Below, piece after piece: positions 52,397 to 54,454 of a DNA stretch of 64,000 bases; position 1 is the stretch's first letter, and the number at the start of each line of letters is the position of its first letter. Source of the stretch: Leptolyngbya sp. DLM2.Bin27 (GTDB lineage Bacteria > Cyanobacteriota > Cyanobacteriia > Phormidesmidales > Phormidesmidaceae); NCBI GenBank assembly GCA_007694115.1, contig RECJ01000115.1:1-64000 (forward strand), given 5' to 3'. The notes beneath the pieces are model-generated. The model did no database searches, was not told the origin of the DNA, and was given only the letters and a program-made list of their open reading frames with translations. The position numbers and the translations under genes are program-made.

Positions 52397-52554
52397 GCGA
52401 CTGCCTAGAACGTCGGTACAGAAACCCGGTTGCTGGGCCAGAAGGCTAGTCATGTTGTTAGATCAGCGACAAAGAAACCGGGTTTTTAGCCATACTGTAC
52501 CGCTGCTCTAGGCTGAATGGTCCAAGTCACGGATTCAACTGGGGGGGATTGCAG

Positions 52555-53043
52555 ATGAGCGCAAATACCAACGTCCAGCCGAAGTCGCTTTACGACCAGG
52601 ACTACCAGCTCTGGTTAGATGAGACCGCTGCCTATCTGCAATCTCGCAACTTCGATGCGCTTGATTTGGAGAACCTGATTGAGGAAATTGAAAGCTTGGG
52701 CAGAAGTGACAAGCGATCGCTCAAAAGCTATCTTCTGCGACTGTGTGAGCACTTCTTCAAGCTCTGCTACTGGGAGGCTGAACGCGATCGCTGCTTTCGG
52801 GGATGGAATCTTGAAATCACAAACTTCCGCATCAGGATCAGCACCATTCTGGAGGATAGCCCTAGCCTGAGGCGCTACCTGGAGGACAACTTTTTGCCCC
52901 AATACCAACAGGCCCGCCGGATATTTTTGAAAGCTAGCGCCTTTGATGGCATCACAATTCCTGAACAGCCCTGGTTTACCCTTGAGCAGGCTCTAGACCA
53001 TGACTGGTTGCCCTGGCAGCCCGATTTAGAAATCAACAATTAG
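52555..53043 (+). CDS. DUF29 domain-containing protein
   Basis: SLYDQDYQLWLDETAAYLQSRNFDALDLENLIEEIESLGRSDKRSLKSYLLRLCEHFFKLCYW. Confidence 0.93.
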   Translation: MSANTNVQPKSLYDQDYQLWLDETAAYLQSRNFDALDLENLIEEIESLGRSDKRSLKSYLLRLCEHFFKLCYWEAERDRCFRGWNLEITNFRIRISTILEDSPSLRRYLEDNFLPQYQQARRIFLKASAFDGITIPEQPWFTLEQALDHDWLPWQPDLEINN

Positions 53044-53050
53044 GAGTACC

Positions 53051-53677
53051 ATGGCCGACGGTTTTGAAATCTGCGATCGCGATCTCACCCCCGCTCTGCT
53101 AGACCGCTACAGGCAGGCCGACATTATGGCCCTCGACACCGAGACCATGGGGCTACTGCCGCTGCGCGATCGCCTCTGTCTAGTGCAGCTCTCTGACCCC
53201 GAAGGCTACGTGGCGGTCGTGCGCATTGAGCTAGGCCAAACCGAGGCCCCCCTGCTCCAAGCACTGCTCGAAGCGCCCAACATTCTCAAGCTATTTCACT
53301 TCGCCCGCTTTGATCTGGCCACCCTCAAGCACAACCTGGGCATTACCGTGGCCCCGGTGTTTTGCAGCAAAATTGCCAGCAAGCTCAGCCGCACCTACAG
53401 CCCCCGCCACGGCCTCAAGGAGCTGGTGCGCGAGCTAGAGGGCATCGAACTCGACAAAACCGCCCAAAGCTCCGACTGGGGCAACGCCATGCACCTCTCC
53501 GACGAGCAGCTCAGCTACGCCGCCAACGACGTCCGCTACCTCCACGGCATTCACCGCACCCTCACCGCCATGCTCAAGCGCGAGGGCCGCTGGGAGCTGG
53601 CCCAAGACTGCTTTAGCTGCCTGCCCACCTTTGTCGCCCTAGACCTGCTCCAGTACCAGGGCGTGTTTGAACATTGA
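53051..53677 (+). CDS. Ribonuclease D / 3'-5' exonuclease
   Basis: IMALDTETMGLLPLRDRLCLVQLSDPEG; LKLFHFARFDLATLKHNLGI; LSYAANDVRYLHGIH (DEDDy). Confidence 0.92.
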   Translation: MADGFEICDRDLTPALLDRYRQADIMALDTETMGLLPLRDRLCLVQLSDPEGYVAVVRIELGQTEAPLLQALLEAPNILKLFHFARFDLATLKHNLGITVAPVFCSKIASKLSRTYSPRHGLKELVRELEGIELDKTAQSSDWGNAMHLSDEQLSYAANDVRYLHGIHRTLTAMLKREGRWELAQDCFSCLPTFVALDLLQYQGVFEH

Positions 53678-53755
53678 CGTTTCGACACCGCCCTCAGCGA
53701 GGGGGTACGATGGGTCTGACCACTGCCTGGATTGATCGACTAGAGGAGAATCACC

Positions 53756-53989
53756 ATGAGCGTTGACAGTAAAGACTTTCAAGACGAGCTGCAAAAGGCG
53801 ATCGACTACGCCCACCAAATGACGGCTGAGAAGGGCGAAACCTCGTCTGAAGCGGCAGCAGCCTGGGACGTAGTCGAAGAAATGCGGGCCGAGGTTTCCC
53901 ACCAGCACCAGAAGCCCAAGAAAACCGGCTTTGATCAGTATCTAGAAGACAACCCCGAAGCCCCCGAAGGATTGATGTACGACACCTAA
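53756..53989 (+). CDS. CP12-like protein lacking cysteines
   Basis: SSEAAAAWDVVEEMRAEVSHQHQKPKKTGFDQYLEDNPEAPEGLMYDT aligns by eye with the CP12 core AAAWDAVEE...AEASHQ...YC.DNPEA.EC..YD, but has no Cys. Confidence 0.82.
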   Translation: MSVDSKDFQDELQKAIDYAHQMTAEKGETSSEAAAAWDVVEEMRAEVSHQHQKPKKTGFDQYLEDNPEAPEGLMYDT

Positions 53990-54157: not shown

Positions 54158-54454
54158 ATGTCACTCTATGTTGGTAACTTGTCCTACGATGTCACCCGTG
54201 AAGACCTAGAGCAGGTGTTTGCAGAATACGGCGACGTGAAGCGGGTTAGCCTGCCCACCGATCGCGAAACCGGGCGTCCTCGCGGCTTTGCTTTTATAGA
54301 CATGGCCGCTGAAGCCCAAGAAGATACGATCATCGAATCCCTCGACGGGGCCGAGTGGATGGGTCGCGAAATGCGGGTCAACAAAGCTCGCCCCCGCGAC
54401 GACGCCCGCAGCGGCAGCGGCAACGGCGGCAACTACCGCCGCACGGGCTTCTAG
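54158..54454 (+). CDS. RRM-type RNA-binding protein (cyanobacterial Rbp)
   Basis: MSLYVGNLSYDVTREDLEQVFAEYGDVKRVSLPTDRETGRPRGFAFIDM; Gly-rich tail. Confidence 0.95.
   Translation: MSLYVGNLSYDVTREDLEQVFAEYGDVKRVSLPTDRETGRPRGFAFIDMAAEAQEDTIIESLDGAEWMGREMRVNKARPRDDARSGSGNGGNYRRTGF

Follow-up and report, generated by a model that had tools for sequence, protein, structure and literature searches.

A stand-alone, cysteine-free CP12 of the CP12-0 class retained throughout Nodosilinea: a putative redox-insensitive regulator of phosphoribulokinase

The window (the whole stretch of 64,000 nucleotides analysed here, contig C162) belongs to a 4.28 Mb genome of the Nodosilinea group that is 86% complete. 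It carries a short CP12 gene, set in a trpB-rnd-CP12-RRM context that is particular to the window's lineage. The features of this locus, with the basis of each assignment, were as follows:

52549-53043: gene for a DUF29 protein, located between trpB and rnd; most relatives, but not all, have it here
53051..53677, + strand: upstream neighbour, 3'-5' exonuclease (RNase D-like; rnd) (Pfam DNA_pol_A_exo1, E 4e-38; synteny)
53706..53711, + strand: possible -10 element, TACGAT (weak; no proof of function by itself)
53743..53748, + strand: Shine-Dalgarno-like GAGGAG, 7 bases 5' of the CP12-0 ATG (sequence)
53756..53989, + strand: CP12-0 gene, an ORF of 77 codons with ATG start and TAA stop, encoding a 77-aa CP12 without cysteine (ORF; Pfam CP12 profile; orthologues in 28/28 genus genomes)
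53822..53824, + strand: codon 23 (T), canonical Cys1 column (alignment; all orthologues have T/S here, and the 9/9 CP12-N relatives have C)
53852..53854, + strand: codon 33 (A), canonical Cys2 column (alignment)
53864..53902, + strand: codons 37-49, PRK-association motif WxxVEExxxxxxH with the AWDxVEE core, intact (invariant residues; motif from PMC8151241)
53942..53944, + strand: codon 63 (L), canonical Cys3 column (alignment)
53969..53971, + strand: codon 72 (G), canonical Cys4 column (alignment)
54158..54454, + strand: downstream neighbour, RRM RNA-binding protein (Pfam RRM_1, E 9e-21; synteny)

An AGGAG-like element was also present at the Shine-Dalgarno position of the relocated orthologues, and most relatives had TAAGAT at about -45 to -51 in place of the window's TACGAT. 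Functional coupling to the rnd and RRM neighbours was considered unlikely, since their association with the gene is limited to the window's lineage and differs elsewhere, where the gene stays. A phage origin of the gene was also rejected, with no match among 50,697 phage records.

The original prediction of a CP12-like ORF was borne out by the profile search: the protein aligned to positions 2-70 of the 70-position Pfam CP12 profile (PF02672), scoring 82.5 bits (E 3.6e-23; cut-off 22.7 bits). CP12 was the only family above its cut-off in the 77-aa ORF, and N-terminal CBS domains were absent. Solved CP12 and CBS-CP12 chains were matched as well (6gfo, E 1.7e-14; 5nmu, E 7e-14). The AWD_VEE core comprises A36, W37, D38, V39, V40, E41, and E42, of which all but position 39 are invariant in the orthologues. 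Alignment with the canonical CP12 of the same genome placed T23, A33, L63, and G72 in the four cysteine columns, in agreement with the earlier statement that both pairs are gone and that the protein contains no cysteine at all; in the absence of every cysteine, the disulfide switch is unusable by this protein, as had also been proposed. Being stand-alone, with the core present and both cysteine pairs absent, the protein belongs to class CP12-0, one of eight cyanobacterial CP12 types (Stanley, Raines and Kerfeld 2013, as relayed by PMC3906501, entry Leptolyngbya_CP12-0). The published example and the orthologue of Nodosilinea nodulosa PCC 7104 (Lepto7104DRAFT, L115) may be one and the same protein. 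The early caution about novelty was thus justified: the cysteine-free class was known before, and the window protein adds another case to it.

Three more CP12-domain genes were found in the window's genome. The search for a canonical paralogue that had been suggested together with the original prediction yielded a four-cysteine CP12 on contig C105; the normal redox switch is still encoded by this cell, and CP12-0 is therefore an added, differently regulated paralogue and not a replacement. The gene on contig C86 (L003) encodes a CP12 with AWE replacing AWD and only the C-terminal cysteine pair. AWE-type proteins formed a distinct clade (support 100/100) found in many Nodosilinea, and resemble a mirror image of CP12-0, with the GAPDH arm retained and the PRK motif changed. 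Contig C316 (L238, 2492-3722) carries a truncated CBS-CP12 that stops after AWQVYEEM. A hydrogenase maturation protease comes next; despite its presence, no HoxH or HoxU was found in the window's genome. PRK-family genes were present. In another genome of the genus (G007, 96% complete), no canonical CP12 was found, the CP12 complement there consisting of CP12-0, the AWE type, and a partial CBS-CP12 match only.

A CP12-0 orthologue was detected in all 28 genus genomes searched, with an in-frame stop in one; identities were 84-97% for Nodosilinea nodulosa PCC 7104, Nodosilinea sp. LEGE 06152, and Nodosilinea sp. P-1105, among others. The codon-by-codon analysis covered 26 of the 28 and showed no cysteine in 2002 codons. 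The cysteine columns were occupied by T/S, A, L, and G/A, respectively, spelled with many different codons. This variety, together with retention in 28 genomes, excludes the sequencing error that had been named as a possible explanation for the missing cysteine codons. The dN/dS ratio was ~0.05 for the whole gene, 0.017 for residues 34-52, and ~0.06 for the N- and C-terminal parts, compared to 0.08 for the canonical CP12 of the genus; judged from these substitution patterns, purifying selection on CP12-0 is strong. W37, V40, E41, E42, and H49, inside the most constrained segment, were invariant in 26/26 orthologues and in 9/9 CP12-N relatives. In the C-terminal GAPDH arm, Y62, P67, A69, E71, and Y75 were still conserved, and the near-invariant R73 was gone in 25 of the 26. 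The single interrupted copy, from the metagenome-derived Nodosilinea sp. WJT8-NPBG4 (L087/L116), has TAG at W37 of AWD, either a true nonsense mutation or a fault of the assembly.

Outside the genus, the closest relatives were nine proteins (L125-L132 and L035; Leptolyngbya PCC 6406, Halomicronema, and others), here called CP12-N. The signature VEEM.AE.SHQHQ, slightly varied in places, is common to them and the Nodosilinea proteins, and both sets fell in one clade (support 100/99). All nine have the N-terminal cysteine pair and lack the C-terminal pair. The cysteine-less proteins formed a single group within the SHQHQ clade (99/93). They did not form one group in a quick tree made without the cysteine columns, so the grouping rests in part on these columns. 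The simplest reading of these sequences would be a stepwise loss, in which the C-terminal (GAPDH-side) pair was the first to disappear and the N-terminal pair followed at the base of Nodosilinea, this second step being accompanied by a rebuilt first helix (I16, Y18, H20, and Q21 fixed).

The surroundings of the orthologues point to a link with hydrogen metabolism. Of the 12 genus genomes that bear hox, eight have the CP12 orthologue directly 3' of hoxY in the slot between hoxY and hoxH, as do several sister genera, mostly with 20-24 nt between the hoxY stop and the CP12 start; for G005, one of these eight, the contig stops short of hoxH. A match to a curated family, above its cut-off, confirmed HoxU, and HoxF, HoxY, and HoxH were named from homology and gene order. 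In three genus genomes whose hox cluster is divergent, hoxH is directly preceded by a truncated CBS-CP12 closely related to the C316 protein. Beyond the genus, 80 hox regions were read in a sample of the phylum; in 66 of them the distance from hoxY to hoxH was no more than 1.6 kb, and a CP12-domain gene occupied the slot in 29 of the 66. These came from seven families, 22 of the 29 from one family; the other 37 regions had no CP12 gene there. In other cyanobacteria the slot is held by CBS-CP12 genes. In one genome of another family (G333), a stand-alone one-cysteine CP12 (L161, 200-436, - strand) was found between hoxY and hoxH, which suggests that its CBS domains and most of its cysteines were lost independently, in parallel. 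'CBS domain; CP12' appears as one cluster in a table of a 2025 survey devoted to the gene neighbourhoods of [NiFe]-hydrogenase and succinate dehydrogenase, which mentions CP12 nowhere else (PMC12727194). No description of a stand-alone CP12 series in the hox slot with stepwise cysteine loss was found in the literature searched, which excluded Stanley 2013 and Hackenberg 2018, and no priority is claimed.

The CP12-0 gene probably came from the hydrogenase (hox) operon. In the window's lineage, hox was lost and the gene relocated to the context described above. Across the genus, HoxH and HoxU were both absent in 16 of the 28 genomes and CP12-0 was kept in all 16, indicating that CP12-0 does not need the hydrogenase. 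Of the named strains, Nodosilinea sp. P-1105 (L117) bears hox, and Nodosilinea nodulosa PCC 7104 lacks it.

As for its ancestry, CP12-0 showed 46-56% identity to the CP12 part of CBS-CP12 and 39-47% to canonical CP12, and a Cys4-to-Ala change is common to the CP12-N forms and CBS-CP12. Together with the shared slot, this suggests descent from CBS-CP12. One tree placed the branch in a clade with CBS-CP12 (96/86); in trees of 77 columns, grouping with canonical CP12 was not rejected (AU p 0.48 and 0.42). On these comparisons, the branch likely represents CBS-CP12 minus its CBS domains.

With regard to function, Chlamydomonas CP12 associates with PRK through W35xxVEExxxxxxH47 and binds GAPDH through its C-terminal disulfide turn (PMC8151241); the former motif is kept position for position in CP12-0, from W37 to H49. 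AlphaFold2 modelled the hairpin helices (5-26 and 31-51) at pLDDT of about 76-90 and the C-terminal part at 52-65, compared to 66, 81, and 64 in the last three blocks of the canonical CP12 of the same genome. In a Foldseek comparison, the predicted hairpin superposed on CBS-CP12 5npl_A over 44 columns (0.6 A, 55% identity). Because the PRK motif is both intact and the most constrained segment, a putative PRK-directed, redox-insensitive role is best supported. We consider the stand-alone, cysteine-less CP12-0 of this genus to be probably such a regulator, with a rough probability of 0.5. Stable GAPDH binding would have been lost together with the C-terminal disulfide, while the hairpin would still dock on phosphoribulokinase, allowing CP12-0 to restrain or shield PRK regardless of thiol state. 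Published work on CBS-CP12 is in line with this: the protein binds AMP, does not enter a ternary complex, and inhibits either PRK or its activation (PMC9406205, PMC9514657). Two results from canonical CP12 count against the PRK reading, however: removal of the N-terminal cysteine pair weakens PRK binding (PMC9406205), and a Cys1-to-Ser mutant showed no PRK binding (Wedel and Soll, as cited in PMC9514657). The many residues still conserved in the C-terminal GAPDH arm also weigh against it, as some contact with GAPDH may have been kept.

A less probable alternative would be that of a decoy or competitor, which occupies PRK (or GAPDH) without forming a ternary complex, keeps the enzymes out of GAPDH-CP12-PRK, and thereby favours flux. 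The presence of a canonical CP12 in the same genome and the combination of a retained PRK motif with a missing GAPDH disulfide are in line with it, but the inhibitory action on PRK reported for CBS-CP12, the best-studied relative, makes it doubtful. Even less probable is a constitutive GAPDH-binding scaffold in which the C-terminal turn needs no disulfide to fold. The conserved residues of the GAPDH arm would suit such a scaffold; yet in Synechocystis mutants the C-terminal cysteines were required for GAPDH binding and growth with glucose, changes in this pair abolishing or strongly impairing function (PMC9514657, PMC9623430), and both the loss of R73 and the low confidence of the C-terminal model argue against it. 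An accessory role in assembly of HoxEFUYH, in nickel delivery, or in regulation of the hydrogenase, with SHQHQ perhaps binding metal, ranks marginally lower still. It would account for the position between hoxY and hoxH in the genus and its sister genera, the close spacing, and the occurrence of CP12 proteins in the same slot in seven families, and Chlamydomonas CP12 is able to bind Cu (PMC7281370); it is at odds with the retention of the gene under strong constraint in genomes lacking HoxH and HoxU, and with the majority of hoxY-hoxH regions in the phylum sample, which have no CP12 in the slot. Finally, a functionless relic or sequencing artefact, to which the in-frame TAG in 1/28 genomes might point, is very improbable given the low dN/dS, the genus-wide retention, the conserved ribosome-binding site, and the several codon changes at each cysteine column.

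For a redox-insensitive, PRK-directed CP12-0, a plausible use would be in a dark, fermenting, highly reduced cell with the Hox hydrogenase running, in which a disulfide-based CP12 would misread 'light'. That PRK would be held down in such cells is suggested by the hox slot. Persistence of CP12-0 after the loss of hox in the window's lineage would presumably reflect the continued presence of PRK. Taken as a whole, the history would be that of a redox-blind branch that arose from CBS-CP12 in the bidirectional hydrogenase operon, shed its CBS domains and then both cysteine pairs, served as a PRK brake in dark, reduced, fermenting cells where the disulfide switch is misleading, and persisted as a free-standing regulator once the hydrogenase was lost. 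We put this complete scenario forward tentatively, as possible rather than probable.

Compared with known systems, the window protein shows no structural difference from the CP12-0 class, with which it shares the stand-alone form, the AWD_VEE core, and the lack of either cysteine pair. What is added to this class is its conservation throughout a genus, the step-by-step disappearance of the cysteines, and the position of orthologues between hoxY and hoxH. The CP12-N proteins of Leptolyngbya PCC 6406, Halomicronema, and relatives share SHQHQ, and several lie in the hoxY-hoxH slot; unlike CP12-0, they have kept the N-terminal pair. The result is an ordered natural series, from N-terminal pair only to none, alongside a four-cysteine paralogue, and a naturally occurring case in which the PRK and GAPDH arms are separated. 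CBS-CP12 fusion proteins (reportedly Hackenberg 2018; PDB 5nmu, 5npl, and 5nvd) share the hoxY-hoxH slot, in many genomes, with CP12-0 orthologues, but differ from the window protein in possessing CBS domains and in mostly keeping the N-terminal pair and Cys3. The operon link to hydrogen metabolism, with a gene that outlived the hydrogenase, together with the series and the separation of the arms, opens the function of CP12-0 to direct tests in cultured strains and bears on the role of non-canonical CP12s. With canonical CP12 (PDB 6gfo and others), the window protein shares the fold and the core motif, with 41% identity to the solved cyanobacterial protein; canonical CP12, however, has disulfides and a thioredoxin switch, whereas the window protein can form no disulfide.
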